The notes beneath the pieces were generated by a model. The model was not told the DNA's origin and did not search any database. It saw nothing but the letters and a program-made list of their open reading frames with translations. A stretch of DNA of 64,000 nucleotides from Calliopum simillimum (Eukaryota; Arthropoda; Insecta; Diptera; Lauxaniidae), in NCBI GenBank assembly GCA_951812925.1, contig OX638371.1, positions 49,326,101-49,390,100 on the forward strand, written 5' to 3'. Below, piece after piece: positions 22,026 through 57,092 of the stretch. Each line of letters begins with the position of its first letter. Position 1 is the first letter of the stretch. The position numbers were made by a program, and so were the translations under genes.

Positions 22026-22457
22026 TAAGGGCCAGTTTTTCAGTGCAAGTTTAACTCATTTTCTTGTTTAAACTAAATTTAAGCTCAGGAATGAGTTGTG
22101 ACGACGAAAGTCGGAAACCTCGTTTTCGACACACAAAATCATTTTTTTTGTCATAATTATGTGTTAGAAAAATGCATTGATAGATTTATATGTAAGTCGA
22201 TCTTTGCAAATATATGACTAAAAGTTCAATTAAAAAATCAATTTTCTATATATAAAATGTCATTAAGTAACACACTTAAAAATTCTTAAAGTTATTTGGG
22301 AGAACACGCCCTGATAAGGTGGAAACACCTGCAATCGGTATTGAATTTGTTCCAAAGGAACAACTATACCAAATATCAATAAATAACACAAAACAACAAT
22401 TATGATATATCAATACGTATTAACACACTAACAAAACTGGCAAAAGTCGGCTTCGCA

Positions 22458-22535
22458 GCCGGGCAAGGCTGGTGCAGTGGTAACGACTTCTGCTACCAAC
22501 CGCGAGTTCCTTGGTTCAACTCACGCCCAGGCCTA
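22458..22535 (+). promoter_or_regulatory. tRNA-like pol III promoter, unit 1
   Basis: Box A TGGTGCAGTGG at 22,470-22,480 fits TRGYNNARNNG fully. Box B GGTTCAACTC at 22,513-22,522 fits GGTTCRANNC fully. The 43-bp spacing is right for tRNA-type promoters. The cloverleaf does not close properly (the T stem mispairs), so this is a SINE-like promoter rather than a tRNA gene. Confidence 0.75.
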
Positions 22536-22618
22536 AAACACAAAAAAAGTTTTCAAACTTGCAATTTTTCAATTATAATTAATTTAGTGAAATAAATATA
22601 ATTATAATTAAAACAAAA

Positions 22619-22665
22619 ATAGTCTGATGAGTCTTTGTGGCGAAAGACGAAACATATGTCACTAT
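22619..22665 (+). ncRNA. Type I hammerhead ribozyme, unit 1
   Basis: All core elements are present and pair. Stem I is ATAGT (22,619-22,623) with ACTAT (22,661-22,665). The core is CTGATGA (22,624-22,630). Stem II is GTCTTT (22,631-22,636) with AAAGAC (22,643-22,648), closing loop GTGGCG. GAAA follows at 22,649-22,652. A minimal stem III is formed by C (22,653) with G (22,658) around ATAT, then the GTC cleavage triplet (22,658-22,660). Cutting is expected after 22,660. Such short stem III forms are known from Penelope-like elements and retrozymes, where they often act as dimers (family knowledge). Confidence 0.9.
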
Positions 22666-23002
22666 AGCCGTGTTTTTAATCCGTTCCTTGATTTGTCATA
22701 ATTATGTGTTAGAAAAATGCATTGATAGATTTATATGTAAGTCGATCTTTGCAAATATATGACTAAAAGTTCAATTAAAAAATCAATTTTCTATATATAA
22801 AATGTCATTAAGTAACACACTTAAAAATTCTTAAAGTTATTTGGGAGAACACGCCCTGATAAGGTGGAAACACCTGCAATCGGTATTGAATTTGTTCCAA
22901 AGGAACAACTATACCAAATATCAATAAATAACACAAAACAACAATTATGATATATCAATACGTATTAACACACTAACAAAACTGGCAAAAGTCAGCTTCG
23001 CA

Positions 23003-23080
23003 GCCGGGCAAGGCTGGTGCAGTGGTAACGACTTCTGCTACCAACCGCGAGTTCCTTGGTTCAACTCACGCCCAGGCCTA
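23003..23080 (+). promoter_or_regulatory. tRNA-like pol III promoter, unit 2
   Basis: Box A at 23,015-23,025 and box B at 23,058-23,067, identical to unit 1. A single G-to-A change lies upstream (CAGCTTCGCAGCC). Confidence 0.75.
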
Positions 23081-23163
23081 AAACACAAAAAAAGTTTTCA
23101 AACTTGCAATTTTCCAATTATAATTAATTTAGTGAAATAAATATAATTATAATTAAAACAAAA

Positions 23164-23210
23164 ATAGTCTGATGAGTCTTTGTGGCGAAAGACGAAACAT
23201 ATGTCACTAT
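23164..23210 (+). ncRNA. Type I hammerhead ribozyme, unit 2
   Basis: Identical core to the unit 1 ribozyme. Stem I 23,164-23,168 pairs with 23,206-23,210, CTGATGA is at 23,169-23,175, and the expected cut is after 23,205. It lies exactly 545 nt from the first cut. Confidence 0.9.
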
Positions 23211-23547
23211 AGCCGTGTTTTTAATCCGTTCCTTGATTTGTCATAATTATGTGTTAGAAAAATGCATTGATAGATTTATATGTAAGTCGATTTTTGCAAA
23301 TATATGACTAAAAGTTCAATTAAAAAATCAATTTTCTATATATAAAATGTCATTAAGTAACACACTTAAAAATTCTTAAAGTTATTTGGGAGAACACGCC
23401 CTGATAAGGTGGTAACACCTGCAATCGGTATTGAATTTGTTCCAAAGGAACAACTATACCAAATATCAATAAATAACACAAAACAACAATTATGATATAT
23501 CAATACGTATTAACACACTAACAAAACTGGCAAAAGTCGGCTTCGCA

Positions 23548-23625
23548 GCCGGGCAAGGCTGGTGCAGTGGTAACGACTTCTGCTACCAACCGCGAGTTCC
23601 TTGGTTCAACTCACGCCCAGGCCTA
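23548..23625 (+). promoter_or_regulatory. tRNA-like pol III promoter, unit 3
   Basis: Box A at 23,560-23,570 and box B at 23,603-23,612, unchanged from unit 1. Confidence 0.75.
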
Positions 23626-23708
23626 AAACACAAAAAAAGTTTTCAAACTTGCAATTTTTCAATTATAATTAATTTAGTGAAATAAATATAATTATAATTA
23701 AAACAAAA

Positions 23709-23755
23709 ATAGTCTGATGAGTCTTTGTGGCGAAAGACGAAACATATGTCACTAT
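23709..23755 (+). ncRNA. Type I hammerhead ribozyme, unit 3
   Basis: Identical core, CTGATGA at 23,714-23,720, expected cut after 23,750. The sequence after it continues only about 130 bp before the array ends in a T run. Confidence 0.9.
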
Positions 23756-24374
23756 AGCCGTGTTTTTAATCCGTTCCTTGATTTGTCATAATTATGTGTT
23801 AGAAAAATGCATTGATAGATTTATATGTAAGTCGATCTTTGCAAATATATGACTAAAAGTTCAATTAAAAAATCAATTTTTTTTTTTCTATAAAAGTTTA
23901 AGTATAAATTGAAAAAGATATTTATCGCAAAGGTTAGGAAAAAAACCCATATTTTATTTTATTATTATTATTTTACTTATATTTTTCTTTTTATAATAAC
24001 TAATCTGAATTCTATTTAAAAAAATTACAAAAACCCAAAAAACAGAAAAAGGGAAAATGTATTACTAAATAAGTACTTTAGTCATAAGATAAAATGCAAC
24101 ACTGAGAAATGTCATGTGAACAGGCCCAAGACATTTTTCATATCTACGGCAACATTGCACGATGTGACAACTATGTGAACCAAAACAGCTGATTGTCATT
24201 TCATATTTCGTCAAAGTGAAATTAATAACTATAAAGCAACGAGCTGAAGTCGATTCTTGGTCAGTCAATCGTTGAGTTTCACGCAGGCAACATCAACCGC
24301 TGCAGCTACAGAGTTCAGGTAACATTTTATTTTTGTCAAAGACTTCGGACCAACGCGACGCCTCTTTTGCTAAG

Positions 24375-26795: not shown

Positions 26796-28072
26796 TAACG
26801 AACCTTTCAGCCAGCGGTTTTGCTCGCCGGTGTCCAGGGGTTCGGCTACAAAAATTTATAAAGAAAAGGACGGCCTCTTGGTTAAATTCAAAGTCACGGG
26901 TTGGAGTTTTGTTTGTTTAGTGCAATTTCATTTCTTTATTCAGTTTCTCTTAATACATAGAAAATAATATATATATCTTAAAACACGTCTCTCTGCTTCC
27001 CCACCACTCTTCGCTCCTATGCGTCGCTCTCTCGTCGCCGATAGCCGTGGTCTCGTTAAGTGTAGTAGTGGTTTGTCGTCTCGCTTGTTCCTACTGAAAT
27101 GGCTACTGTCGTAATCTCGTGGCTGATAGTCGTGAGTAGTTGATCTCGTGTCGGGCTGCTCCCACCTACGCTACAAGACGGTTTCAAACGCGTGGCTTAT
27201 GGCCGTGAGGTAGCTGATTTCGTATCGGGCTACGTCACCCCTGCTATACACAAGAATAAGTTACACGCGTGGCTTATGGCCGTGAGGTAGCTGATTCCGT
27301 ATCGGGCTACGTCACCCCTGCTATACACAAGAATGGATTAATCGCGTGGCTTATGGCCGTGAGGTAGCTGATTTCGTATCGGGCTACGCCACCCCTACTA
27401 TACACAAGATTAAGTTACACGCGTGGCTTATAGCCGTGAGGTAGCTGATTTCGTATCGGGCTACGTCACCCCTACTATGCACGAGAATAAATTACACGCG
27501 TGGCTTATGGCCGTGAGGTAGCTGATTTCGTATCGGGCTACGTCACCCCTACACAACACAAGATTAAGTTACTCGCGTGGCTTATGGCCGTGAGGTAGCT
27601 GATTTCGTATCGGGCTACGTCACCCCTACACAACACCAGATTACTTATACACGGTCTCTACGTCACTCCACTACTACGTCACTATACTACCACACCACTA
27701 CTCATGCCACTACTTTAAATATTTCACTTCCCTTGCTGCTTACCGGTTTTCTTCTTAAGTTTCCTGTGTTCTCCTTCTGCTGCTTACTGCTGCTGATGTT
27801 CGCCAGTCGCCGGCCACGCAAAGACTGCTTTCCTCCTTGTCTGCTACTTCTGCTTACTGCTGCTGCTGCTGGTGTGTGCTGGCCGCCGGCCACGCAAAGA
27901 CTGTCCCGATCAACTGCTGTGTGTCTAAATTTATGCTATCATTCTTTGACAATGAACAAACCGAACGACAGCTGTGTGTCAGAAACAGCTGTTGTGCGGT
28001 GTTGCCGTTTATATCACTTTTAGTGATGTGGTGGGGATTTTACTTTAAACTAAATTACTCTTATTTTCCTTA
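26796..28072 (+). mobile_element. LTR-like repeat starting TGTAACGAACC
   Basis: It starts TGTAACGAACCTTTCAGCC, then GGGGTTCGGCTACA and TTTATTCAGTTTCTCTT. The minus-strand repeat ending at 24,951 shows the same order, so this is a dispersed family with defined ends, perhaps a solo LTR or a terminal repeat. The right border is uncertain. It contains the 77-bp minisatellite and CTGCTGCTG runs. No protein recognised. Confidence 0.4.
27189..27650. repeat. 77-bp minisatellite, six copies
   Basis: CGCGTGGCTTATGGCCGTGA starts at 27,189, 27,266, 27,343, 27,420, 27,497 and 27,574, a strict 77-bp period with a few substitutions. Each unit also has GTATCGGGCTACGTCACCCC. GC content is much higher than the surroundings. 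Confidence 0.92.
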
Positions 28073-38739: not shown

Positions 38740-39590
38740 TAGGAAATGAATTAAATATAAGTCCTTCGTCTAAACCAGCAACAAATGCACCGGATATTGC
38801 TGTCAAAAATACCATTCCTTTGCTTATGTGCGCCAATTTTTGCAATTGGAAAGCGGCACGACTTACATTGTTAAACTACTGTAAAGAAGGTAAAAGGCAG
38901 GTAAGTCCAGCAGATAAACACAACATGTGTAGGAAAAATGCTAGAGACAAATGTGATGCAAGCCGATGTTGAGAGACTCGAGATACATCATTCACATCAT
39001 TAAATATCTCTTCTAATCCAGATTTAATTATATACCAGCCTATTAAGCCTTGTGCACCTATTAAAGCGCCAGCTGCGACAACTCTTTTTTTCATGCCAGA
39101 ATTAAAATGTCCTCGGGACCAGAAATACGCCGCTGGTAATAAAAAGAACATTCCAATAGCTCGACCCCACATTCTATGAAAATACTCCATTTAATATATA
39201 CTTTTAAATTCCTCCAAAGTCATAGTGCTGTTTGACATCCTGAATTCTAGAAATTGTTTATATTTATTGAATTCATTTTCCCATTCCTGTTGATTTGACG
39301 GTCTTTTTTCTCCCAATAACTTCTGAGTGACCATTGACAATCCAGATTCGGTTAATCGCGTTAGACCACCTAAAAACACAGCCACTGAAATCATTCCACT
39401 GCATCCCAGCCACCAGTAACCTACAATTTTTTGATTTTTGTCGTTTCCTTTCGCTGCGTTTAAGAGTCCTGCTCTGCATACCTTCGTTATATCGGTGGAA
39501 AAACTCTGTTATTGTATTGATGCGTTAATACATTTTTATTAAGCCAGCGGGTTCTTTGCAAATTGTATGCGGCAATACACTTGAGCTTAA
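38740..39590 (-). pseudogene. COX15: COX15 (haem A synthase) pseudogene
   Basis: COX15 is a multi-helix inner mitochondrial membrane protein that oxidises haem O to haem A for cytochrome oxidase. Reading leftward: a partial N-terminus (AAYNLQRTRWLNKNVL, then a frame change near 39,490), AGLLNAAKGNDKNQK, IVGYWWLGCSGMISVAVFLG, GLTRLTESGLSMV, then TLEEFKSIY and TAA (39,188-39,190). MEYFHRMWGRAIG follows with the conserved histidine, then RVSQHRLASHLSLAFFLHM, a TAG near 38,876, and [20 protein letters not shown] with NSFPKMG. Homology ends there at about 38,740, well before the protein's C-terminus. Apart from the two stops and one frame change it reads without introns. It sits between the two direct repeats noted at either side. 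Confidence 0.88.
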
Positions 39591-41599: not shown

Positions 41600-41642
41600 T
41601 TCTTCAAAATTAAATTGAAATTATAAATCCGTCAACGTGAAA

Positions 41643-44600
41643 ATGTTCAGTACTCCTCCAGCTCGAAATACATTTAGCTGTGGCCAGTGCAAGGCTGAAG
41701 ATTCAATGCAGATGGTCCAATGCGACAAATGTGATATTTGGTATCACTATGAATGCGCCGGAGTCGATGCTACAATCAAAGATCAGCCATGGAAATGCTC
41801 CAAGTGCAATAGCAAAACAGCACCTTTAGACAAAATGGAGGATCACAAAAATGAACGCGTTGAAAGAGGAACAAAGACTATCTCAATATGCTCAACAAGA
41901 TCTTCGAAACGCCGCAATATAGATCTTGAGTTGAAGCTCCTTGAAGAAGAAAAGGCTTTGGAGCAAAAATATCTGCAGAAAAAATTTGAGATCTTATCTG
42001 CTGGCAGTGAAAAGCAAATCGAACAAAAAGGAAGCTGCAGTCATGCACCAGACCGAACCAGAGAATGGGTTTCAAAACTTTCATTTCCTATTGCTTCCAA
42101 AGAGGAAGATTTAGTTTTATCTAACTCTCAGTTAGCTGCAAGGCAGGCATTACCGCGAGAACTTCCAATTTTCAACGGCAAACCTGAGGAGTGGCCGCTG
42201 TTTTATAGTTCCTTTCAAGAAAGCACTAAAATATGTGGATATTCTTCAGCTGAAAATCTCCTGCGATTGCAAAAATGCCTTAAGGGAAAGGCATATGAGC
42301 TTGTGAGTAGCCATCTTTTGCTGCCAACGAACGTTCCCGAAATTATACAAACACTTAAAATGATGTTTGGGCGGCCTAGTGTGATAATAAACTCTATGCT
42401 TGATAAAATCCGCTCCGAACCAGCACCGAAGGCAGATAAGCTTGAAACTCTCGTTTCATATGCAATATTGGTGAGGAACCTGTGTTCTACAATGGAGGCT
42501 TCAGGTCTAGACGCACACATGAATAACCCGTTACTTCTGCAAGAACTAGTGGACAAACTACCCGCACAAACGAAACTCAATTGGGCTATGTATATCGTTG
42601 ATCGCAATGCAAATATTTCAATGTTTTCGCAATGGTTATACAATGTCGCTGAAGCTGTTTCACAGGTGAGCTCATCTTTGTTTCCTTTAAAATTAAGCAG
42701 TGGAAGTTTACATGCACATGAGTCGGAAAAGAATGCAGTGCAAAAAAGATGCCCGATATGTGACAAGCAACACTATGTTGAATCTTGTAGCGAGTTTACT
42801 GCAATGAAGTTAACCAAAAGATGGGACATGGTAAAGAAGTTTAATCTATGTCGTTTATGCCTCAAAAACCATGGTAGCTTCCGTTGCTCTAAAGATAAAT
42901 GTTCAGTAGAAGGCTGTGAAGCTAGACACAACAAACTTCTTCATAAATTTGCAAGAGATCCCACAAGAGTCAGCGCCCATTCTTGTCCTAACTATACGAT
43001 GAATACATATTTCAAAATTTTACCTGTCACTTTGCATCACAAAGGCACATCTGTAGACACCTATGCATTTTTAGACGATGGCTCCAATGTAACGCTTATT
43101 GAAAAAGAGGTTTGCGATAAACTTAGCCTAGAAGGGCAACCAAAAGCTCTTTGCTTAAAGTGGACATCTAATACGTCAAGAACCGAAAATGAGTCAATGC
43201 AAGTTTGCGTTTGGGTATCTGCACGTGAGGAAAATGCTAAGAAATTTGAATTACTTGATGTGCGCACAGTTGATCAATTGGCGTTGCCAGTTCAAAGCGT
43301 CACAAAACAGCAGTTGTCCTCATTTAGCCATTTAAAGAAGATCCCATATTTGCCGTATGTTAAAGCAGTACCTAAAATTCTAATTGGTCTTAATAACGGC
43401 TATGTCTGCAATACTTTAAAGACTGCCGAAGGAAAGTCCACAGATCCAAGTGCATCCAAGACAAGACTTGGTTGGGTAGTGCATGGTGGCGGTCAAACAA
43501 GTGATAGCGCACTTAACATCCACAATTTTGAGCAATGTGATTGCGACTATGAGATGGAAAAGTTACACAATATTGTATCCGAATACCTCTCACTCGAAAA
43601 CTTTGGAAGAAGAATTGAGTTAGAGGCACCAGACATAGTACGAGCAAAAGAAGTAATGCATTCCACTACTAAACGCATTGGGAAACGTTTTGAAACGGGA
43701 TTAATTTGGAAGTCAAAATTTACCGAATTTCCAAATAGTTACCCCATGGCCTTGAGACGACTTCATTGCTTAGAGAAAAAGTTAAGTCCTGATCACATTC
43801 CAGTGGTAACGAAGTATATTGACGATTTAGTCACAAAAGGATATGCGCGAAAATTGAGTGACGAGGAGATTCAGAATACTAATGGCGTCATTTGGTATCT
43901 ACCAATCTTTACAGTTACCAACCCTAATAAACCTGGTAAGGTGCGTTTGGTTTGGGATGCTGCTGCAAAGGTACGAGGAACATCTTTGAATTCAATGCTA
44001 CTCAAAGGACCAGATTTAACAGCACCACTACTGTCAGTGTTATATGGGTTCCGTATGAGAAAAGTTGCCATTTGTGGAGACATCAAGGAAATGTTTCATC
44101 AGGTGCTAATCCGCAAAGAAGACCAAAGTGCTCAACGATTTCTTTGGCGAAATAACGAAGACAACAGGAATCCCGACATCTACGTTATGCTGGTTATGAC
44201 TTTTGGTGCAGCATGCTCTCCCTGTTCGGCGCAGTACGTAAAGAATCGAAATGCTGATGAGTTTAAAGCAAAATATCCAAGAGCAGTTGACTCAATAATA
44301 AATCATCACTATGTCGATGACCTTTTGGATTGTGCAGACACAGAATCCGAAGCTATAAAGTTGGCAAAAGATGTGGCTTTTATCCACAGTGAAGCAGGCT
44401 TTTTCATCAGGAATTTTAAATCAAACTCTAAGGTCGTTATGGAAAACCTCGGTGAGTTACAAGAACAAAATTCTATTTCTTTTAGTAATCAAGATATCCA
44501 AATGTCAACTGAAAAAGTACTGGGAATGTGGTGGTCAACGGCAACGGATAACTTTACGTACTCCTTAAAACTAAACAGGCTTAATAATGAGCTCCTATCT

Positions 44601-46412
44601 GGAGATAGAAAGCCTTCAAAAAAAGAAGTACTGAGAACCTTAATGTCCGTATTTGATCCACTTGGTTTCTTGTCACCTTATGTTGTTTATTTAAAGATTA
44701 TTTTACAAGAAGTGTGGAGAACTACAGATGGCTGGAACGATGAGATAACTGACGATGCATTTCGAAAATGGCTTATTTGGGTGAAACTTTTGCCAACTAT
44801 TGAAAATACCAAGATTCCAAGGTGGTACCAGATAACGGTTGATTCTTCTATTCAACTCCATATTTTCGTTGATGCAAGCGAATTAGCATATGCTGCTGTC
44901 GGATACTTTTTGGTTAATTCTGGAGGCGTACTTCAGTGTTCCTTGGTGAGTGCAAAAGTAAAGGTAGCCCCAAAGCAACCAGTTTCAATACCACGCATGG
45001 AACTTCTGGCAGCGGTTCTTGGTGCCCGTTTAGCAAATATTATATGTAGCATGCATCAGATAACTTTTGAAAGACGTTGGTTTTGGAGCGACTCGAAAAC
45101 AGTTCTAGCATGGCTGACAGCAGATCCAAGAAACTATAAACAGTTTGTGATGTTTCGCATTGGAGAAATTCTTGAAAGCACCAAATTTTCAGAATGGAGA
45201 TATGTTCCAACAAAAGCTAACGTTGCAGATGACGCCACAAAATGGAAAGCAAAATTTGAGATCGATATGCAGAGCAGATGGTTCACTGGTCCTGAGTTTT
45301 TGAAGCAACCAGAACTTTCATGGCCTGAGAAAGGACCCGAATTTTCACAACCTTCTGAAGAGTTAAGACCGCATATGTTGCTGGTTCACACCAATGAGGC
45401 AAGTATAAATTGCATTGACTACCACAGATTCTCTTCCTGGGGAAAATTGCTTAACATGGTTTGCAAATTGTTTACATTCTGTTACAAGCTGAAGCATAGT
45501 TGTGTTCCAGGAAAATCAGAGCTGTTGGCAATATCCGAAAATTATCTCTACCGGCAAATCCAGTACGATTTCTATAAAGACGAAATAGCGGTATTGAAAA
45601 ATAAAAATGAAGACATAGCGAAGACCAGCATAATTTACAAATGTTCTCCTTATCTTGACGAAAACGATGTACTTCGAATGTACGGAAGGATTGATTTGGC
45701 AACTAAAGTAGTTGAATGCGTAAAGCGACCAATTATTTTACCAAGGGACCATTACTGCACAAGTCTTTTAATTCGACATTTCCATAAAGCATATCATCAT
45801 ATTCATCATGACACTTGTCTCAACGAAATTCGTCAAAAATTTTACATACCTCGCCTAAGAGTCGAACTTAAAAAGGTACGAAGAAATTGTCAACGTTGTA
45901 AAAACAACACATCTACACCAAAAGTTCCTGAGATGGCACAAATGCCGAAAGCCCGGCTGTCACCGTTTACACGTCCATTCACACATGTTGGACTCGACTA
46001 CTTTGGTCCTATTCGTGTCAAAGTTGCTAGACATGAAGAAAAACGTTGGGGTGTGCTTTTTACATGTCTCACTGTACGCGCAGTTCATCTTGAAATTGCA
46101 AGAGACATGACGACAGATAGCTGCATCATGGCCATTCAAAACTTTATAGCAAGACGAGGTACTCCAATATCAATATATTGCGACAACGGAACAAACTTTC
46201 GAGGAGCTGAAATTGAGTTGAGAAAGTCTATTAAGGATATAAATTTTCCAAACATTGCTGATAAATTTAGCACATCTTCAACAAAATGGTACTTCAATCC
46301 TCCAGCATCGCCACATATGGGAGGTAGTTGGGAGAGATTGATTCAATCTGTTAAAAAAAACTCTCTACCAGATCACTCCGAATTTTATTTTCAAAGAAGA
46401 CACTTTGTATAA
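41643..46412 (+). CDS. BEL/Pao Gag-Pol polyprotein with N-terminal PHD finger
   Basis: I chose the ATG at 41,643; the frame is open two codons further upstream from a GTG. Domains by approximate residue: a PHD-type zinc finger at 12-62 (CGQCKAEDSMQMVQCDKCD, then WYHYECAG); a Gag-like region at 170-330 (LPIFNGKPEEWPLFYSSFQ); Cys/His knuckles at 370-440 (CPICDKQHYVESC); an aspartic protease around 479 (FLDDGSNVTLIEKEV); reverse transcriptase with YVDDLLD near 891; a Pao-type spacer and RNase H from about 1,076 (IFVDASELAYAAVGYF); an integrase HHCC zinc motif at 1,380-1,421; and the integrase core to 1,555 (LDYFGPIRVK, YCDNGTNF). The frame ends early at 46,412 because of an eight-A run at 46,353-46,360. 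The PHD finger is an acquired chromatin-reader-like module whose role here is unknown. Confidence 0.95.
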   Translation: MFSTPPARNTFSCGQCKAEDSMQMVQCDKCDIWYHYECAGVDATIKDQPWKCSKCNSKTAPLDKMEDHKNERVERGTKTISICSTRSSKRRNIDLELKLLEEEKALEQKYLQKKFEILSAGSEKQIEQKGSCSHAPDRTREWVSKLSFPIASKEEDLVLSNSQLAARQALPRELPIFNGKPEEWPLFYSSFQESTKICGYSSAENLLRLQKCLKGKAYELVSSHLLLPTNVPEIIQTLKMMFGRPSVIINSMLDKIRSEPAPKADKLETLVSYAILVRNLCSTMEASGLDAHMNNPLLLQELVDKLPAQTKLNWAMYIVDRNANISMFSQWLYNVAEAVSQVSSSLFPLKLSSGSLHAHESEKNAVQKRCPICDKQHYVESCSEFTAMKLTKRWDMVKKFNLCRLCLKNHGSFRCSKDKCSVEGCEARHNKLLHKFARDPTRVSAHSCPNYTMNTYFKILPVTLHHKGTSVDTYAFLDDGSNVTLIEKEVCDKLSLEGQPKALCLKWTSNTSRTENESMQVCVWVSAREENAKKFELLDVRTVDQLALPVQSVTKQQLSSFSHLKKIPYLPYVKAVPKILIGLNNGYVCNTLKTAEGKSTDPSASKTRLGWVVHGGGQTSDSALNIHNFEQCDCDYEMEKLHNIVSEYLSLENFGRRIELEAPDIVRAKEVMHSTTKRIGKRFETGLIWKSKFTEFPNSYPMALRRLHCLEKKLSPDHIPVVTKYIDDLVTKGYARKLSDEEIQNTNGVIWYLPIFTVTNPNKPGKVRLVWDAAAKVRGTSLNSMLLKGPDLTAPLLSVLYGFRMRKVAICGDIKEMFHQVLIRKEDQSAQRFLWRNNEDNRNPDIYVMLVMTFGAACSPCSAQYVKNRNADEFKAKYPRAVDSIINHHYVDDLLDCADTESEAIKLAKDVAFIHSEAGFFIRNFKSNSKVVMENLGELQEQNSISFSNQDIQMSTEKVLGMWWSTATDNFTYSLKLNRLNNELLSGDRKPSKKEVLRTLMSVFDPLGFLSPYVVYLKIILQEVWRTTDGWNDEITDDAFRKWLIWVKLLPTIENTKIPRWYQITVDSSIQLHIFVDASELAYAAVGYFLVNSGGVLQCSLVSAKVKVAPKQPVSIPRMELLAAVLGARLANIICSMHQITFERRWFWSDSKTVLAWLTADPRNYKQFVMFRIGEILESTKFSEWRYVPTKANVADDATKWKAKFEIDMQSRWFTGPEFLKQPELSWPEKGPEFSQPSEELRPHMLLVHTNEASINCIDYHRFSSWGKLLNMVCKLFTFCYKLKHSCVPGKSELLAISENYLYRQIQYDFYKDEIAVLKNKNEDIAKTSIIYKCSPYLDENDVLRMYGRIDLATKVVECVKRPIILPRDHYCTSLLIRHFHKAYHHIHHDTCLNEIRQKFYIPRLRVELKKVRRNCQRCKNNTSTPKVPEMAQMPKARLSPFTRPFTHVGLDYFGPIRVKVARHEEKRWGVLFTCLTVRAVHLEIARDMTTDSCIMAIQNFIARRGTPISIYCDNGTNFRGAEIELRKSIKDINFPNIADKFSTSSTKWYFNPPASPHMGGSWERLIQSVKKNSLPDHSEFYFQRRHFV

Positions 46413-46881
46413 TGCACTTCTCGAATGCGAACGCATCATTAATTCTCGCCCTCTTACATATGTCGATTTAGAATCCGTTACGGATGAAGCTCTAACACCT
46501 AACCACTTCATTCTTGGGTCATCAAACGGAAATAAACCTTTAGGTGAATTTACTACAGACGACTTATCACTAAGAAAGAACTGGAGAAAGGTACAGTACT
46601 TTGCAAATTTGTTTTGGAAGCGTTGGGTTCAAGAGTATCTTCCAAATCTAACGAAACGCACAAAGTGGCACGAAAAATCGTCTCCTATTGGAATTGACGA
46701 CATAGTTGTTATAGTGGATCCGAATTTACCGCGAAACAATTGGCCACTGGGTATTGTTGAAACGGTTTATAAAGCCAAAGATGGAAATGTGAGAAGCGCA
46801 ACTGTACGAACAGCAACTAGCACATTCACACGACCCGTTGCAAAGTTGGCCAAATTGGATGTACGGAAGTCGACTACTTAG
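46405..46881 (+). CDS. BEL/Pao integrase C-terminal region (DUF5641-like), separated by a frameshift
   Basis: It continues the integrase of the preceding frame after the A-run frameshift (ALLECERIINSRPLTYV, DEALTPNHFILGSSNG, WKRWVQEYLPNLTKRTKW, then NNWPLGIVETVYKAKDG). In relatives it is part of the same polyprotein. The ATG at 46,405 is only the first one in frame; true translation would enter from upstream. The frameshift may be a recent mutation, an assembly error in a homopolymer, or a slippage site. Confidence 0.9.
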   Translation: MYNALLECERIINSRPLTYVDLESVTDEALTPNHFILGSSNGNKPLGEFTTDDLSLRKNWRKVQYFANLFWKRWVQEYLPNLTKRTKWHEKSSPIGIDDIVVIVDPNLPRNNWPLGIVETVYKAKDGNVRSATVRTATSTFTRPVAKLAKLDVRKSTT

Positions 46882-47589: not shown

Positions 47590-50500
47590 TGCTATATGTC
47601 CCCATAGGTATCGTACCTAACGCGGGTCCACCACGGCTAACTCTGGACTTTCAGGGGGTTCTCAACCCGCCGCGTTAGGTCGAGGGAGCTAACAATAAAT
47701 TTCACTTCCGGCGGAAGTGAAATTTGAAAAATAAAAATGTACCGGTGCAAACCAAAAAAAAAAAAAACCCCCAACTATCGATCTCCCAAAACAAAACCCA
47801 AAAGAAAAACCCACAGAATTAAAGATCACGAAACCTAGGAAAAAGATGGTAACCTTCACCTCTTTAAAATTTCTTGATGATACCCACGAACACCCACAAC
47901 CAACCATAATTCACCTCACTTATCCACCATCATCATCGACCACTGCAATCCCCCACCCTTCCAAATTAAATTAACGCCTCATTTTAAACTATTAAAAATT
48001 CACAAAATTAATTTTATTAATGAAATTTTGATAAACGGAAGCATCCGTATTAAACAATGCAAAACCAAAAAAAAACTATATCATAGGCCCTAACATACTC
48101 TTCAGTAGAAATAATTCAGCAACAATTGCTCAAAAATAAATATAAAAAAAAACTTAAGACAAAATATCTAGAATAAATCTAACTTCACTGAAATAAATCA
48201 TGTAATAGTATAGGTTATCAAAAAGAAAAAATTATATCATCAAAATAATTAAATAATTTAAACATGCATGTAATGTAAATGGTATATCACCAACGAAATT
48301 CAATAAATATGTGAAATAAAACAAAATATAATTTTGAACAAAAAAAAACACAGGGAAAAATGGGTTATTCGATTTTTTTAAAATAAATTTTCTTTCTTTT
48401 ACCGACTTTGAAACGAAAATGTCGGTCACTTTTCGAACATATAATTTTTACGCCACCCTAGAGAGCTCTTTGGGATGAAGATATGCGTGCCTAAAATTCA
48501 AAATGGCCACGATTAAACGACCGCGAAAATTACCGAACATCCGCCATTTCCCTTTACAAACGCAAAAATTTTATATAGAATACCGACATTTTTTCCAATT
48601 TTAACCGAGACTATAAAACGCAACCTTAATTTATACGATTAAAATAATCTTAAAACTAACTTAAAATGAAAAAAAAACTCCGCAGGAACCCTGTGTTTAT
48701 ACCAGCCCGTATATTCTTGCAGTTCTCTCACTACATGCAACCGATCATAGGTTCACACTTCACGTATTTTGGAATATTCCTTTTTCCACCCAAGACCCCA
48801 ACCAAATTTCTTGAATTTACGAGATTAGTTTTTTCATATTCCCCAGTAGAAAATGATGCCAAATATATACATGGAATACTAAAAAAAAACTGTAGCTGAC
48901 TTATCTTTTGTGTTGAGGATTTGCTTATCAAATTTTTTCCACCGCCGGTTCCTTGTCCTCATACGCCAACCACACTATCCGGGAAACACAAAATTAAAAT
49001 TCGTAATCTTCTGGCTATCGTCAGGCATCTGACTTACGTTTATTTTGTTCTTCTGTCGTTTACTGTAAAGGGGTATCTTTGCTGCTGCTGCTGATGCTGC
49101 CGATTTCTTCGTACAAAGTACACCACAGGAATTCCTAAACCAAGTATGAAATCTATCACTCACTTTCCACTAAAAAATCTAAAATTTCTAAAAAATTTTA
49201 CCTTCTTCTTTTTTCCTCTAATTTTAATCACTGTCGACCCGAAATTAAATTGCTGCTAATTCTTTTTTTAAATAAATTTAATAAAATTTTGCCGCGGGCT
49301 GAATCAACTGTACAAACACTTTAAAATTTCCAAAAACAAAATTTTAATTTTTAAATAAACTTGCGCAGCAACACGACTTTTCCATCCGGCGGTGGTTTTA
49401 CTTTTAAAAATTTTACCGCGAAACAAGTCTGTCGTCAACTCAAAATTTCTAGAAGCTCAGCAGCAACAAAAAGAACCGCTTAGTACATTACATAGCTCCT
49501 ACATATGACTTACACCCACACCCCAACATTAAAAATCGACTACACTCGAAACGCTTTCTCTTAATTTTCCCGAACTACCAAATTGCTTAACTCATCGGAA
49601 AACTCTTATCATCGCTTAACATTGCCAAAATTGGTAACACGCATATCGTTTTCCTAGTTCCAAACCCAATACTAATACAAAATTCCTACTTTTTTCTCTG
49701 ACCTGGTAATACCGTACTCAAAATATCCCTCTCTTCATATGCCATTTGACGTTTATCAAAACAATGATGGCCGTACATTACAAGTGACAATTTGCAGATG
49801 AATTGTTTTTTTTCTTTTATTTCACCTAAACGCCTAAACGTTAAGCTAATAAATCACGATTGGAAACTGGTATCATTACTCGCCCCACACGCATCCTAAT
49901 TTGTGATCTGATTGCTGCCAAAAAGCAGGATTTTGCGAGCTTGGACGATCGAATGACCTTTGCAGTTGGTAGCGCTTTGGTGTTTATTTGACGCACCGTC
50001 TAACCAGGTTTGACGCACATCATGCCATTGGACGCTTTATTTTGAAATTATCGAGACATCTGCCTATAACAAGGTAATGTGATTATCCCGTACGCGTATT
50101 TTGTAGTGCCAGCAATTACCAATCTTTCGGTGAGCGACATCCATCGACATCCATGCATTTCTATTGTCGCCTCGCAGGTTTTTGCTAACGCCATAGCTTT
50201 ATTATTTATTTCTTATTGACTTTAATTTCCATAGGTTTTAGTTGAAATTGACTGCTTCCGTCATCCAATAGCATGCAAGAATGGTTCTTAAGTAAGAGAT
50301 GCAATTATTTAAATGATAATTAAAATGGTATTTCATTCTGCCCTACAGTTGAACATACGAACTATGTTGGTTTTGGTCCCGTTTACCTATGTCTGGTGTT
50401 ATCACAGTTAATACCAGATTGGGTTGCACCTTTGTTTGACCCATACTGCAGCGAAATAACTCTTTGACCCGCGTGCATTTAGTCATTAGAGAAACGAACC

Positions 50501-51027
50501 TTTTTATCAGACTCCTTTGGACCACTCGATGGTTGTTCAAAGTTCCAACCCTTTCTACCCACGGATTATAAGCAAATAACACCAGAGCTCAAGTTATGCC
50601 ATTCCCTGAGATCAACACTTTGGAAAGTTTCCTGTGTTGGCACACAAAAGTTTCTAGCATGTTCTAAAAATGCAGATATATTTTCTATACACTTGCAAAC
50701 CATTTTGCTTTCATTAATTTTCCTAATGGAATTGCAAGGTGTTTACAAGTTAACACAAGAGAACGCCATCCTTGGTTGACACTTTGCCTTGAACGAGTTT
50801 TAGTTTATTTCAAAGTTAAATGCGGTCTAAAGATTATTGTACTAGGTTGTGTGGCTTGTTCGAAAGACACAAATAAAACAATTTTGTGTCGTCGTAGGCC
50901 AATATTCGTGGGCAAATGTAAGTAACTTAGAACGTGAGCACCCCATTCTGGTAAATCGTGAAAGCTTAAAGGTATTCTACTTCTAACCCTGCACTTTCAA
51001 ATTGCTGCCAAAACCAAACATGCAACA
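47590..51027 (-). repeat. 3' LTR of the gypsy element (3,438 bp)
   Basis: It matches 57,942-61,404 over its whole length with rare substitutions. It lacks a block of about 25 bp (containing CGCACCCGCCCATCCTG) that the other LTR has near 58,208-58,232. It contains a GC-rich hairpin zone (CCTAACGCGGG near 47,617 with CCGCGTTAGG near 47,670), a perfect palindrome at 47,697-47,725 and a CTG repeat near 49,080. No recognisable protein. Confidence 0.95.
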
Positions 51028-51724: not shown

Positions 51725-54700
51725 CTACTGCTTTAGGTCTTTAGCGTGAAAGATGCCTAATGATTTCCCTGCAAGTGTTTCGAGTTCGTACATGCTATTG
51801 CCTATAGGCTGTACGACTCGACACTTAGTAAATTTTTTGCAAAATTTCGCGTTCACGTTTTTCTGAAAGTTACTCAAAGTAAAATTTCGCTTGTAAATCT
51901 CCTGGCCAGGCACAAATTGTACTTCGCGACTACGTCTGTTATAATATTTAGCACTTTTTTCATAGGCTTTGTGTACATTTGATTTGATTCGTTCACGGAT
52001 TAGGGACAATCTATCCTGGTTATTCATAATAAAAATCTCTGGATCATCCAACGAATTAAGTTTTCTTGCTAACTGATAATCAGTACCGCTTGTGAACATG
52101 TTCTGTCCGAATAAGGCAAAGAAAGGGGTGACACCAGTGGCCGCGTGAACAGAACTTCTAAGTGCACACTCAATTTCTGATAAATAAAGATCCCAATCCC
52201 TATGGTCCTGATCCATATAAGATCTAATAGCGGCCAATATAGATTGATTGACACGCTCTGCCGCATTTGACTGGGGAGCGTGATAAGCCGTCTTCATATG
52301 TTTCACTTTATATTGGGCTATCATTTTCGCAAACTCTTTACTGGCAAACTGTTGACCATTATCCGAGTGTATGATTTCGGGAACCCCGAATTTGTGAAAT
52401 ACTTCACGCGTAAGAAAACTTATCACATTTAAAGCAGTTGCTTCACGCATTGCTTTAAGCAACGTAAATTTTGTAAAATGGTCTACAACAATGAAAATAT
52501 ATGCGTTGCCCCCTTTTGATCTTGGGTATTTACCTAAAAAATCTATATATATTTTCTGAAAAGGGCGCTCCGTCACAACCTCTTTACCCATTGCTGGTCT
52601 CAATACTTGATTAGAGTGTTTTGATTCCTTGCATATCGTGCAGTTTCGAATAAAATTTCGCACTTGAATTGCCATTCTTGGCCAGTAGTAAAACAGTTGC
52701 AACCTATATAAAGTTTTAGACACACCGCCGTGAGCCACTATCTCAGGACTGTGTGCTTTTTCAATCAAAGTTGAACTTAAAGATTCTGGAATCCACAATT
52801 TCCATTTTAATTCATCCCGGCCTACTCCTAATTGAGTTCGCTTAAATACCATGCCATTGTCCACACGAAGATCTGGTAGTTTCTCATTATTTTCTGTCAC
52901 TGTCTGTACTAACTGCAAATACTCTGGAGATTGAAATTCAGTCGTTTCAAAATCCAGCCAACCACCACTATCTCCATCAATTTCCTCAACGAAACGCGAT
53001 AAGGTGTCCGCCACTATATTTTCTGACCCCTTCCTATGCTCTTTCTCAAAATCATACGCCTGAAGTTGGAGGGACCACCTAGCAAGACGACCTGATAGGT
53101 CTTTTAAGGACATGAGCCACTTCAAGCTCGCGTGGTCTGTCACCACAGTGAATGGCATCATCTCGATATAAGGGCGAAATCTCTTTACCGCTAAGACAGC
53201 TGCCAAGCACTCTTTTTCTGTAACGCTGTAATTGCGTTGACAGCTGTTAAGTTTCTGAGAGAAGTACGCTATTGGCCTTTCGTTGTCTTCGCGGTCCTTC
53301 TGGTACAGCACCGCACCTACGCCAATTTCTGACGCATCGCACTGTACCCAGAACCGCGAGGAAAAATCTGCATGTGTTAGCACAGGGGCTGTAGTTAATG
53401 CCGTTTTTAGCCTATTAAAACCATCAATGGCTTCTGGTGTCATTTTAAATTTAGACCCCTTTTTTAAAGTGTCGCTCAATGGAGCCGATAAGGTCGCAAA
53501 ATTCTTTATAAATCGGCGATACCATCCAGCGGTGCCTAAAAAACTTCTGACTTCCCTAGGTGATTTGGGTATAGATATTTTCATGATTGCCGACACTTTA
53601 TCGGGATCAGTTTTTAAGCTGCCGCCTCCCACTATGAACCCTAAATACTTCAGCTGCTTGAAGCAAAACTTGGATTTTTGCAAACCAATGGTCAAATTCG
53701 CTTTTTTAAGACACTGAGCTACCTCACTTAAAACTTGAAGATGCGTATCGAAGTCGGGCGCAATAATGAGAAGGTCATCTAAGTACACAAAAACATTAGA
53801 TTTCAACCGCTGTGGTACCACTTTATCCATGAGGCGACAAAGTCGTTGGGCCGCATTGCAGAGTCCAAAGGGCATTACTGCAAATTGATATAGCGGACGC
53901 CCAGGTACTGTAAACGCCGTATACTGCTTGCTCTTTTCTTCCAACCCGATCTGCCAAAACGCATATTTGAGATCTACGCTGCTTATGTAGTGTGTATAAT
54001 CAATCCTACTTAATATACCTTCAATGTTCTGCAGCGGATACGCATCTTTAATAGTACGATCATTTAGTTTCCGTGCGTCTAAACAAAACCGGTTTTTCCC
54101 TGGTTTCCGAACTATCGTAGTGCGATTGCTCCATGGGCTTTCGCTTTCTTCTATAACCCCTAATTTCAGCATATTATCAACCTCCGCATATACGAGCTCT
54201 TGAACGGCCGGCGATATGGGATAATGTCTATCTTTGACAGGTACGGCGCCTTCTATTAATTGTATGGTATGCGTTTCCAAATGCGTTTTCCCTAAGCCGT
54301 GTTCCTCATACGTTATAAATTGTTTTTTTATTTCCTCTAATCTCTTCTGTTGTTCATCATCTAGCATGTGACGTTCGGGTTCTTCATCCTCATGATCCAG
54401 TTTATCCTTCCGAAATTGGTGTAAAATTTTTTCTTCATCAAGTTCTGCCACGCCGATTACTTCCGTCGCCAACTCAAATGCCCTCCAGAAATCAATACCC
54501 AGATATGCACTTTGTCCCAAATTTGGACACAGGTAAAAATTAATTATCTTCGTTTTACCTTGATAGGATACTGGAATCTTTACTTTGCCAATTATATTAT
54601 ACCTTTGACCACCTGCCGTTTTTACAACCGAAAAATATCTCTCCATTTTAATTTCGAGTTGCTCTAAAAGTTCTCTACATCCACGCCCTAGGATTGATAC

Positions 54701-55234
54701 TGATGCCCCCGTATCTAAGAGTCCTTTCATTATTGTACCGTTGATTTTTATGTCGGCATAGGCTCTTGGATCCCTATCATTCAAAAGGTTCACCGCCTCA
54801 GCTAATTCTTTCCGAACCCGTTTCCTTTTCGCAAAATTGGCCCTAGCTTTTTTTACTTTTTTTGAAATTTCCCGCATCCCCCGAAACTGTGATTCATTAA
54901 AAAATTTTTCTCGCACCGCGTAATAATTTTTTATTCTTTCTTCAATAGGTCTTATTTCGTGTAACTTTTTACCCTCATTCCTATCATTTTCCAATATAGT
55001 TTTTAAAATTTCAATTTTTTTACTTTCCCCAGGTGTCTCTTGCTTATTGGTATTTTCGACAACTACTTTGTCGGAGCTTGTTGGTTTTCGGGGGGAATTT
55101 GGTTGGATCGTGATTCCCCCGTCAGGATCACGTCCTTCATGGAGTTTCCCGCAGCACAGTTTTTGCAATTTGGAGTAACCACCTAAGGTGTACCACACTT
55201 GTAGCAAAAAATTGATCTTTGCATCACGGGACAA
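51725..55234 (-). CDS. Gypsy Pol polyprotein (protease, RT, RNase H, integrase)
   Basis: A 1,169-codon open frame. By approximate residue: an aspartic protease at 165-185 (LLDTGASVSILG); reverse transcriptase at 350-550 with YLDDLLI near 481; RNase H from 633 (CDASEIGVGAVLYQ); an integrase HHCC zinc motif at about 835-875 (H-x-H spacing, then CTICKESK); and the integrase core (IYIDFLGKYPRSKGG, HSDNGQQFASKEF near 958, and the DDE glutamate in SNAAERVNQS). It overlaps the end of the upstream frame by about 52 nt in the -1 frame, so it is probably made by frameshifting; the first ATG need not be used. No stop or frameshift inside suggests a potentially active enzyme. Confidence 0.95.
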   Translation of the reverse strand: MSRDAKINFLLQVWYTLGGYSKLQKLCCGKLHEGRDPDGGITIQPNSPRKPTSSDKVVVENTNKQETPGESKKIEILKTILENDRNEGKKLHEIRPIEERIKNYYAVREKFFNESQFRGMREISKKVKKARANFAKRKRVRKELAEAVNLLNDRDPRAYADIKINGTIMKGLLDTGASVSILGRGCRELLEQLEIKMERYFSVVKTAGGQRYNIIGKVKIPVSYQGKTKIINFYLCPNLGQSAYLGIDFWRAFELATEVIGVAELDEEKILHQFRKDKLDHEDEEPERHMLDDEQQKRLEEIKKQFITYEEHGLGKTHLETHTIQLIEGAVPVKDRHYPISPAVQELVYAEVDNMLKLGVIEESESPWSNRTTIVRKPGKNRFCLDARKLNDRTIKDAYPLQNIEGILSRIDYTHYISSVDLKYAFWQIGLEEKSKQYTAFTVPGRPLYQFAVMPFGLCNAAQRLCRLMDKVVPQRLKSNVFVYLDDLLIIAPDFDTHLQVLSEVAQCLKKANLTIGLQKSKFCFKQLKYLGFIVGGGSLKTDPDKVSAIMKISIPKSPREVRSFLGTAGWYRRFIKNFATLSAPLSDTLKKGSKFKMTPEAIDGFNRLKTALTTAPVLTHADFSSRFWVQCDASEIGVGAVLYQKDREDNERPIAYFSQKLNSCQRNYSVTEKECLAAVLAVKRFRPYIEMMPFTVVTDHASLKWLMSLKDLSGRLARWSLQLQAYDFEKEHRKGSENIVADTLSRFVEEIDGDSGGWLDFETTEFQSPEYLQLVQTVTENNEKLPDLRVDNGMVFKRTQLGVGRDELKWKLWIPESLSSTLIEKAHSPEIVAHGGVSKTLYRLQLFYYWPRMAIQVRNFIRNCTICKESKHSNQVLRPAMGKEVVTERPFQKIYIDFLGKYPRSKGGNAYIFIVVDHFTKFTLLKAMREATALNVISFLTREVFHKFGVPEIIHSDNGQQFASKEFAKMIAQYKVKHMKTAYHAPQSNAAERVNQSILAAIRSYMDQDHRDWDLYLSEIECALRSSVHAATGVTPFFALFGQNMFTSGTDYQLARKLNSLDDPEIFIMNNQDRLSLIRERIKSNVHKAYEKSAKYYNRRSREVQFVPGQEIYKRNFTLSNFQKNVNAKFCKKFTKCRVVQPIGNSMYELETLAGKSLGIFHAKDLKQ

Positions 55235-56418
55235 TCCATGAACACGTGCCCTTGCTGTTTACAGTTCCAGCATATCAGAACTCGCTTTGGCTGCTGCTGG
55301 TATTGTTTTTGTTGCTGATAATGTTGTTGATGCTCATTACTCCTGCTCGTAAACGATTGCTGATATGTTTGCTGTTGCTTTTGTCCTGCTGAACGTTTAT
55401 TAGCCTGCACTTCATCGACTTTTATTTCTTCATACACATCATCATGGAGGTCATCATTATCTCCAAACTGAATCTCATCAAGGCCATGAGCACGCGGCTG
55501 CCGTCCATATTTTTGAGTTGGATGAAACGAGCTTCCGCGTCGTGCTAGAAACTGTTCTGCTTTTATACACTCTGTGCGTAGCTCCTCTATGGTGTAAATT
55601 GCCATCGGATAAACCACGTTCGCCAAACTACCTCTCAAGTTTTGCTTTATGATATTCACGACATCGTGATCATGAACTAGGTATCTCAATTTGGACCGTA
55701 TTTTTAAAACGTCATGAAAGAATTGATCGACACTTTCTCCTGGCACCTGCTTTCTTTCACTTAACTCGCTCATCACTTGGAAATCCGTGCGATTGCTTTG
55801 ATACTGTCGCATCAGGTATCCTTTTAACGTTGGCCAATCTCTGATATCACGCTTACGAACTTGAAGCCAGTACCATTCACGAGCATTTCCATCCACCAAC
55901 AAATAAAACTCGCAAAGAATTTGCTCCCAGGAACACCCATATTGATACTGCAGACGCTCTAACCGGAAAATGAAGTCTTCCACTGACAGTTTATCGGTTT
56001 TCCCATCGAAAACTAATCCCCATCGATCAATTCTCACCCGGTTAAAATTGTTGTAACCAATATTTTGTGATGTTGAATGTTGATTGATCGCTGCTTGATG
56101 TTGGTATGCCGGGGCTGCGTGTGACGTTTGGTAACCGCTGCCTTCTCGATTGCATTGCATTTCTGGTGGCTGAAATTGCGATGTTGAACGTTGGCTTGGC
56201 ATCGGCTGTTGGTGGTATTGTTGTTGCTGGGATTGTCCCATTGATCTTTGCTGGGATTGAAATCGAGGAAGTTGGCATGGCCTTTGCTGCTGAAAATATT
56301 GTTGTTGCTGGGATTGCCAAGGAGTGATCGCATTTTTCTGACTTAGATGAGTATCATTTGAATTTTGCCTATTATCTTGATTAAAATCGTCTTTTTCAGT
56401 TTCTTCACCTGCATGCAC
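55183..56418 (-). CDS. Gypsy Gag, central and zinc-knuckle part
   Basis: Glutamine-rich N-terminal third (several QQQQ runs). Then a Gag capsid-like segment (KTDKLSVEDFIFRLERLQYQ, EFYLLVDGNAREWYW, ERKQVPGESVDQFFHDVLKI) and a CCHC knuckle near residue 390 (CWNCKQQGHVFMDC). A second Cys motif starts (CYKCG) but is cut by TAG at 55,183-55,185, with further Cys residues open beyond it in the same frame. The upstream Gag frame overlaps by about 76 nt in a different frame, so the real Gag may span two frames. Confidence 0.88.
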   Translation of the reverse strand: MHAGEETEKDDFNQDNRQNSNDTHLSQKNAITPWQSQQQQYFQQQRPCQLPRFQSQQRSMGQSQQQQYHQQPMPSQRSTSQFQPPEMQCNREGSGYQTSHAAPAYQHQAAINQHSTSQNIGYNNFNRVRIDRWGLVFDGKTDKLSVEDFIFRLERLQYQYGCSWEQILCEFYLLVDGNAREWYWLQVRKRDIRDWPTLKGYLMRQYQSNRTDFQVMSELSERKQVPGESVDQFFHDVLKIRSKLRYLVHDHDVVNIIKQNLRGSLANVVYPMAIYTIEELRTECIKAEQFLARRGSSFHPTQKYGRQPRAHGLDEIQFGDNDDLHDDVYEEIKVDEVQANKRSAGQKQQQTYQQSFTSRSNEHQQHYQQQKQYQQQPKRVLICWNCKQQGHVFMDCPVMQRSIFCYKCGTP

Positions 56419-57092
56419 GGATCCAGCGCTTGGCCTACTGCTACATTTGAGCCTCCCGCCCTCGGTTTTTCCACGGACTCACCTACATTCGGTCCTAGAC
56501 TTAATTTTTTTAAAATTTCCGTTAAACTAGATTGCATTATCTGCATACTTTCTGAAATTTTTTCATGCACAGATTGCTCTATTGACTCCTTAAACTCTTG
56601 GTTTGTTCTATGTACGATTTCACCAATCAAGGCAATGTTTTCGCGACTGTTGATAGAGTCCCCCCGAGATTCAAACATTTTTTTATTATTCGGTTTTCCT
56701 GAATTTATGGGTGGAGGTAATGTCAAATTAGGCGGAAACGCATCAAGTGTTTGAGGCGCTAAAGGTGGCTTACCTTTTGGATTAGCACCTGTTGCATTCA
56801 ATGCTTCACTAGTTGCATTCACTGACTCAACAGTTGCTTCTCTTGGTTTTGCTATCGTTTCAGACAAATCAATAAAACAAGCATTATTTGCAGAGGACTC
56901 TTCATTCGAGTTTTCATCTGATTTACCCTGACCCTTTTTTGGTGGAGTTGTAAACATATTTTCTTCCTGATCTTGTGTACCCAATGGGTTTGCTAAGTTA
57001 TACAATGGGGTTCTTTTGTGCCTAAAATTGTATCGAGTATTTTTAGGACTCTTCCTAGATTTACTTGGACTAAATCGCGAATGACTATGCAT
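56343..57092 (-). CDS. Gypsy Gag N-terminal part
   Basis: A basic N-terminus (HSHSRFSPSKSRKSPKN), then a Ser/Asn-rich, low-complexity region and a helical stretch (IVHRTNQEFKESIEQSVHEK). It ends shortly after DPCMQV. At about 56,410 the next Gag frame takes over in the -1 register. Either a frameshift mutation or a second slippage site is possible. No domain recognised by itself. Confidence 0.7.
   Translation of the reverse strand: MHSHSRFSPSKSRKSPKNTRYNFRHKRTPLYNLANPLGTQDQEENMFTTPPKKGQGKSDENSNEESSANNACFIDLSETIAKPREATVESVNATSEALNATGANPKGKPPLAPQTLDAFPPNLTLPPPINSGKPNNKKMFESRGDSINSRENIALIGEIVHRTNQEFKESIEQSVHEKISESMQIMQSSLTEILKKLSLGPNVGESVEKPRAGGSNVAVGQALDPCMQVKKLKKTILIKIIGKIQMILI

Follow-up and report, generated by a model that had tools for sequence, protein, structure and literature searches.

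A tandem hammerhead array and its genomic copies

The window of this study is a 64,000-nucleotide stretch of DNA from the lauxaniid fly Calliopum simillimum (contig OX638371.1, positions 49,326,101 to 49,390,100 of the forward strand), and the element under investigation is a tandem array of 1,734 bp within it, made up of 3.18 near-identical units of exactly 545 bp with four variable positions. A sequence-only reading of this DNA had described tandem 545-bp units that each carry a complete hammerhead ribozyme and an RNA polymerase III (pol III) promoter, had suggested a mobile, non-coding retroelement, and had proposed an Rfam covariance scan, a tRNA search and a genome copy count. The tandem units and their complete hammerheads were confirmed. 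Motif analysis likewise agreed with its three identical cores (at 22624, 23169 and 23714), with its pairing of stem I (ATAGT/ACTAT, 5 bp) and stem II (GTCTTT/AAAGAC, 6 bp), and with its cuts after 22660 and 23205; a further cleavage is predicted after 23750. Stem III comprises two base pairs (A-U and C-G) under an AUAU cap, with ACAUAUGU forming an 8-nt palindrome, and with the core imposed as a constraint, folding also yields an internal loop and, outside it, a 6-bp outer helix I. Self-cleavage of this hammerhead is predicted from these models. In 200 Mb of order-1 Markov sequence, no motif arose with a stem II of at least 6 bp and a stem I of at least 5 bp, and seven motifs with both stems of at least 4 bp were found in 200 Mb of Markov sequence of window composition. 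The unit is non-coding, with a longest ATG open reading frame (ORF) of 24 aa when circularised and a GC content of 0.32, and the minimum free energy (MFE) of unit 2, the predicted monomer, corresponds to z = -4.8 against the mean of 60 dinucleotide shuffles. A second core-like stretch (CTGATAAGG, near 22311) was rejected as a hammerhead by eye, its G8 being changed and no GAAA following the stem.

Genome-wide searches of the 690-Mb assembly detected 2,426 hammerhead copies (1,223 + 1,203) at no more than two mismatches, against none for the reversed control, while a general hammerhead pattern gave 1009 + 1051 matches, against 0 + 1. The element is thus a dispersed, high-copy, non-coding, retrozyme-like family, and the copy number, the dispersal, the short ORFs and the insertion anatomy described below all support the earlier suggestion of a mobile non-coding retroelement spread through the genome. 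Exact and degenerate patterns run against IMG/VR and GTDB contigs returned no retrozyme relatives; five IMG/VR contigs, viewed at the motif only, match the general hammerhead pattern. Plasmid and phage searches gave no match.

Upstream of each hammerhead, and in the same orientation, lies a tRNA-like block. Box A (TGGTGCAGTGG) starts at 22470, 149 bp upstream of stem I, and box B (GGTTCAACTC) starts at 22513, 106 bp upstream. A relaxed box A plus box B pair is expected 0.13 times per 64 kb on both strands (60 simulated windows). Of the 39 dissected loci (defined below), 33 have an identical box A and 37 a box B that fits GGTTCRACTC. The default ARAGORN search found no tRNA; at a relaxed setting the block gave a weak tRNA-Gly match, the same setting yielding 33 matches in the window, and 3 of 500 shuffles of the block matched a tRNA on the plus strand. 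On the pol III claim the evidence points both ways: the boxes are mostly kept, set against a variable block, T runs that could terminate pol III before the ribozyme and so weigh against free read-through, and the lack of a default tRNA match. Judged from these sequence features, a functional promoter is plausible, at about even chances. Such a promoter-like block would be unusual among retrozymes, which PMC7761336 describes as lacking promoters; schistosome repeats carry tRNA sequence (PMC4918200). The tRNA-like head occurs in 1,273 copies against the 2,426 hammerheads, and an independent SINE (short interspersed nuclear element) family with this head is not indicated.

Features of the array and of related arrays at contig ends (unit positions count from the predicted cut)
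Feature	Position	Strand	Remarks
Whole tandem array	22147..23880	+	3.18 units; insertion with one arm, from unit position 32 (5' end) to position 130 within zone A (3' end)
Unit 1, 5'-truncated	22147..22660	+	unit positions 32-545
Unit 2	22661..23205	+	cut to cut; predicted 545-nt monomer
Unit 3	23206..23750	+	cut to cut
Unit 4, partial	23751..23880	+	ends in zone A
Type I hammerhead 1	22610..22676	+	constrained fold and motif; predicted cut after 22660
Hammerhead 1, helix I	22610-22615/22671-22676; 22619-23/22661-65		outer helix; inner stem I
Hammerhead 1, core	22624-30
Hammerhead 1, stem II	22631-36/22643-48
Hammerhead 1, stem III	22652-53/22658-59
Type I hammerhead 2	23155..23221	+	same letters at +545; predicted cut after 23205
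Type I hammerhead 3	23700..23766	+	same letters at +1090; predicted cut after 23750
Left T8 flank	22142..22149	+	possible duplication with T run 23877-23887; homopolymer, hence weak
Predicted hairpin TTAAGT-AACAC-ACTTAA between zones A and B	22263..22279	+	unit positions 148-164, in monomer MFE; repeats +545, +1090
Zone B	22290..22297	+	unit positions 175-182; other outer 3' end of two-armed copies; repeats +545, +1090
Structured, well conserved module	22315..22377	+	unit positions 200-262; hairpin GGTG-GNRA-CACC
tRNA-like block	22461..22528	+	box A 22470-22480, box B 22513-22522; repeats +545, +1090
T5 run between box B and ribozyme	22565..22569	+	may stop pol III; unit 2 has four T, unit 3 again T5
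T11 at right junction	23877..23887	+	four of these T also inside each unit
Contig-end hammerhead satellite	C1:1-2707; C3 right end; C6:1-55.9 kb		C6 longer, composite
C3 left array (L083)	C3:1-1050		unit 398 bp; no mismatch between repeats over 1,050 bp
C4 right array (L084)	C4:119491401-119491850	-	last 450 bp, period 410

Elsewhere in the window are a 77-bp tandem repeat (27188-27629; 5.7 copies, 91% matches) and Pao/BEL-type and gypsy-type retrotransposon frames of several kb each (41619-46881 and 51725-57113). Two nearly identical 98-aa frames (50483-50776 and 60860-61153) lie about 10.4 kb apart, and paired blast matches at equal spacing suggest that they belong to a larger duplication. 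On the minus strand, a frame at 38879-39508, which we take to be COX15-like, is split into two otherwise continuous halves by an in-frame TAA at 39191-39193.

Anatomy and origin of the insertions

We dissected 39 loci, namely the array of the window and 38 others from the listed part of 195 matches (40 of 1,812 first-look candidates scored). Twenty-five are head to head (-/+), one reads -/+/-/+, nine contain plus and four minus segments only, and none is tail to tail; the count covers segments of at least 28 nt lying within 70 nt, so that a short second arm may have gone unrecognised at some single-armed loci. The outer 3' ends fall into two zones: of 65 such ends, 32 lie in zone A (set at 105-145; ends seen at 108-142, around 130), 30 in zone B (set at 155-190; seen at 160-181, around 175) and three in neither, and none lies within 5 nt of the ribozyme cut. 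The ends consist of internal unit sequence with no poly(A) tail. A tandem segment spans the cut by at least 10 nt on each side in 38 of the 39 loci, and the longest arm measures 4,012 nt (L071). Outer 3' ends at each side are present in 26 loci, of which 22 pair A with B, one A with A and one B with B, and two have one unclassed end; random pairing would give at least 22 A+B among 24 with a probability of 1.8e-5, the zone limits having been chosen after viewing the ends. Flank matches of at least 9 bp were found in 21 of the 39 loci, against 7.2% of shuffled pairings, and in 18 of the 22 A+B loci. From this insertion anatomy, mobility of the element is supported.

Allele sharing bears on the origin of the arms. 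Over 13 diagnostic positions, 341 of 377 comparisons between the opposite arms of an insertion are concordant; the figure is 4707 of 7481 when the arms belong to different loci, and 5771 of 9154 (63%) for different loci. This indicates that both arms are copied from one RNA or from identical RNAs. Eleven loci have at least five informative sites; eight are fully concordant, with L064 at 11/12, L061 at 4/5 and L045 at 6/11. Same-strand units within a locus agree in 1403 of 1479 comparisons (94.9%) at the same positions, and most minority alleles within a locus are private to it (302, compared with 86 that are the majority allele in another locus).

Conservation was computed with one unit per locus across the 39 loci. 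The hammerhead (unit positions 504-545) is invariant in 36 of 42 columns, with a mean minority fraction of 0.0037 against 0.0158 for the whole unit, and ranks 40th lowest in variability among the 545 circular windows of the unit, the 39 less variable ones starting at 191-203, 214-232 and 485-491. Exact matches to the window hammerhead number 66 of 78 units, and 76 of 78 pass a regular-expression core test, which ignores pairing; the alignment has gaps in five of the stem I 3' strands. The module just 3' of zone B has a mean minority fraction of 0.0028, and positions 131-182 are less conserved (0.0276). Within the window, the GAAA loop of the module changes to GTAA in the third unit, both being GNRA tetraloops.

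Taken together, these results suggest that the element is probably a dipteran retrozyme, non-coding and non-autonomous, with one type I hammerhead per 545-nt unit, inserted by Penelope-type machinery. The two end zones, their A/B pairing, the flank matches, the arm-shared alleles and the tandem units across the cut are seen in the genome; the order of events, the enzyme and the circular template are what we infer. Array RNA would be made by pol III acting on the tRNA-like boxes, or else by read-through transcription. The hammerhead, perhaps dimeric via its palindromic stem III, would then cleave multimers to monomers of 545 nt, which would be circularised by ligation, as the predicted structure and other retrozymes suggest. 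A Penelope-like protein, with a GIY-YIG endonuclease (EN) and a reverse transcriptase (RT), would bind the RNA, perhaps at the module 3' of zone B, and cut an AT-rich target on both strands. Complementary DNA (cDNA) would be primed on a single RNA by the two target ends, at zone A by one and at zone B by the other; both cDNAs would traverse the unit, often repeatedly and across the ribozyme cut, before joining 5' to 5'. The first cDNA would cover A and leave B free on the same RNA, which may account for the use of a different zone by each target end.

This scheme fits, by analogy, the general Penelope insertion pattern. The Penelope-like protein of PMC11167929 cleaves and extends both strands and prefers AT-rich DNA; its reverse transcription starts internally, in an AC-rich stem loop, at two sites that bound a 30-40 bp "tail" and that did not differ between strands, and its ORF begins at stem II of a hammerhead. 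From that system, a Penelope-type protein might bind the module at positions 200-262. Zones A and B here flank a predicted hairpin with an AACAC loop, and head-to-head copies with 8-10 bp target-site duplications and an optional 31-bp tail at one end are reported in PMC3846280.

The genome itself contains Penelope-like elements. At least 51 GIY-YIG matches were found (150 of 209 candidates scored), with four -/+ pairs within 3 kb. RVT_1 and GIY-YIG domains occur together in frames of L078, L080 and L081, which we called three types without formal clustering, and L078 and L079 each have one 841-aa stop-to-stop frame. For a Pao-type frame and a Penelope-like frame, the named proteins among the matches listed come from flies and mosquitoes; with best identities of about 50%, these matches by themselves place the host at the level of the order Diptera only. 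A motif CTGATGATGA...GAAA follows the frame in all three types by eye, as PMC11167929 predicts. L078 and L079 match each other as far as offset 146, counted from the core, while L078 goes on to 171, which places the ends about 25 nt apart; the one head-to-head copy checked is L081+L082. Two of the GIY-YIG matches counted above (C183:63226 and C104:11024; L075 and L076) lie on small contigs, in frames 612 and 622 aa long; they look bacterial and are possibly UvrC of a symbiont or contaminant.

A number of observations weigh against the Penelope-inserted retrozyme or against single parts of the scheme. At the level of the ribozyme, lifting the constraint on the core lowers the folding energy of the 91-nt stretch by 2.7 kcal/mol (-10.1 vs -7.4) and leaves core bases paired, and the proposed Rfam scan of the window reached no gathering score: the best sub-threshold match was to RF00008, the type III hammerhead, with a different pairing (23.8 bits vs 48.5, E 0.041 or 0.0052), followed by RAGATH-1-hammerhead (16 bits, E 2.8). 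Against the promoter, the tRNA-like block is more variable than the whole unit (mean minority fraction 0.0302 vs 0.0158), and a run of at least five T separates box B from the ribozyme in 37 of 39 loci (36 T5, one T6). With respect to the insertions, the 39 arrays are high-scoring copies, so young copies are over-represented; the flank matches, 9-18 bp long, were allowed 10 bp of slack into AT-rich ends, which makes their lengths uncertain; of the 13 loci without two 3' ends only two have flank matches of at least 9 bp, one being the 9-bp T run of the single-armed window copy, which ends in A; and the arms of L045 are discordant. Regarding the helper, both arms of L081+L082 end at the same offset, about 103 nt past the inferred cut, with no A/B difference, and a strict hammerhead search of the five Penelope loci L077-L081 found none. 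A single 15-nt match in L080 (E 0.009) is all the sequence found in common between the unit and L077-L081, and the helper is therefore assigned by anatomy alone. The 3' ends here lie about 45 nt apart, compared with the 30-40 bp tail of Penelope-like elements.

As to the form of the template, we lean slightly towards a circle, from the predicted structure and by analogy with other retrozymes. It is quite possible, if somewhat less than an even chance, that uncut multimeric transcripts serve instead and that the hammerhead acts elsewhere, for example in releasing RNA ends. Uncut multimers would yield the same tandem units across the cut, and the 4,012-nt arm is feasible as a transcript; in the related system of PMC11167929, moreover, hammerhead mutants left insertion in vitro unaffected, and unprocessed RNA was judged the dominant substrate. 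The strong conservation of the hammerhead speaks against multimers, as do the same-strand agreement and the mostly private minority alleles, which are those of one circle recopied, though a homogeneous source array also fits them.

Whatever the template, the Penelope-inserted retrozyme has to be distinguished from a deletion derivative of a Penelope element that had no separate origin. The order of parts is the same in L078-L082, where a hammerhead-like motif is followed within about 180 nt by the 3' ends. We nevertheless consider such a derivation unlikely, given the lack of meaningful identity to L077-L081, the stem III and outer helix I of the element's hammerhead and the presence of the tRNA-like block. 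The unit contains no RT plus GIY-YIG ORF: it inserts like a Penelope element and is not one.

Mobilisation by a LINE (long interspersed nuclear element) with an L1-type endonuclease is less probable still. Twin priming in LINEs produces inverted arms, with a second priming point that varies. Target-primed insertion with flank matches and inverted arms would fit such an event, but 62 of the 65 outer 3' ends fall into two zones rather than at variable points, and they consist of internal unit sequence and not of a poly(A) tail. Finally, ordinary satellite DNA spread by unequal crossing-over, with an incidental hammerhead, would suit the homogeneous tandem units and the satellite-like arrays at contig ends, yet is very improbable in view of the short dispersed arrays, the two end zones, the A/B pairing and the flank matches.

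A related satellite at contig ends

A hammerhead variant whose loop II is four bases longer was found at 232 places (98 + 134; control 0). Of these, 100 are listed, every one at a contig end (C1 left 5, C3 left 44, C3 right 19, C4 right 32), and similarity searches with each unit added C6 left, with a longer composite period. Arrays are thus found at five of the 12 ends of C1-C6, which make up 675 of the 690 Mb, and each reaches the first or last base with its 5' side towards the tip. This relative has a period of 385-410 bp. Two stretches are missing from its unit, positions 98-178, where the A ends usually lie and zone B begins, and positions 203-314, while the hammerhead, box B and a match resembling box A are retained.

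These arrays raise the possibility, which we regard as doubtful, that the chromosome ends of this fly are capped by a retrozyme-related hammerhead satellite laid down by reverse transcription of its RNA. The 5' to 3' direction from the tip inward, common to all five, is expected of reverse transcription onto an end and would arise by chance once in 16. Against a chromosome-end role, 132 of the 232 places are unlisted and may include internal arrays; because the similarity searches failed to recover two known arrays, at C3 left and C4 right, little can be read into the lack of matches at other places. Contig ends, furthermore, need not be telomeres, as satellites often stop assemblies. A TERT search of the genome gave no match and was uninformative, the control genomes also lacking one; telomerase is reported as lacking in Diptera (PMC12051294). 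The chromosome ends of Chironomus, Anopheles and D. virilis likewise have long tandem repeats (PMC7694509), unlike which the repeat here contains a hammerhead and is related to a dispersed retroelement. If telomeric, it would tie self-cleaving RNA to chromosome-end maintenance in Diptera, as a ribozyme-processed, RNA-templated end structure in an order reported without telomerase. No report joining a hammerhead to dipteran chromosome ends was found among the matches listed in searches of open-access literature.

Comparison with known retrozymes, SINE-like repeats and Penelope-like elements

Retrozyme-like repeats are stated for insects (PMC7229834) and mosquito hammerheads are described in repeats (PMC3088659), so an insect retrozyme as such is not new. 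Type III hammerheads are reported in dipterans (PMC7936874), and the hammerhead here is read as type I. The newt/axolotl and Aedes hammerheads share a short stem III and a loop able to pair between two ribozymes (PMC7229834, PMC3088659); their hosts differ, and palindromic stem III pairing here is a prediction.

The non-LTR (non-long terminal repeat) animal retrozymes of PMC7229834 resemble the present element in their single type I hammerhead per unit, tandem copies, non-coding sequence, low GC content, flank duplications and structured RNA. Retrozyme target-site duplications exceed 4 bp when present, as do the flank matches of at least 9 bp in 21 of 39 loci here. The 545-bp unit is longer than their range of about 170-400 nt, which we read as descriptive and not defining, and the head-to-head insertions with two end zones set the element apart from them. 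The schistosome SMalpha SINE-like satellite also combines tRNA sequence and a type I hammerhead in each repeat (PMC4918200, PMC8490949), but belongs to another phylum and measures 335 bp in one W-element example (PMC8490949), and the tRNA-like part here is a weak match at the relaxed ARAGORN setting only.

No report joining a retrozyme to A/B head-to-head insertions was found among the matches listed in searches of open-access literature. The RT that moves animal retrozymes is described as unsettled, with Penelope-like elements a strong candidate on indirect grounds (PMC7229834), a link for which the insertion anatomy reported here supplies genomic evidence. With EN-containing Penelope-like elements (Penelope, Poseidon PAc) our element shares the head-to-head arms, the AT-rich targets, the two alternative 3' ends and a hammerhead before the region where reverse transcription starts (PMC11167929, PMC3846280), and flank duplications are short in both (8-10 bp in PMC3846280, matches of 9-18 bp here). 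They differ in having an ORF, whereas the retrozyme has none, carries a fuller hammerhead and shares no sequence that we found. The A/B pairing and the common alleles suggest that head-to-head copies originate from one RNA primed at two sites by two target ends, which offers another route than the antisense self-priming that PMC3846280 favours.

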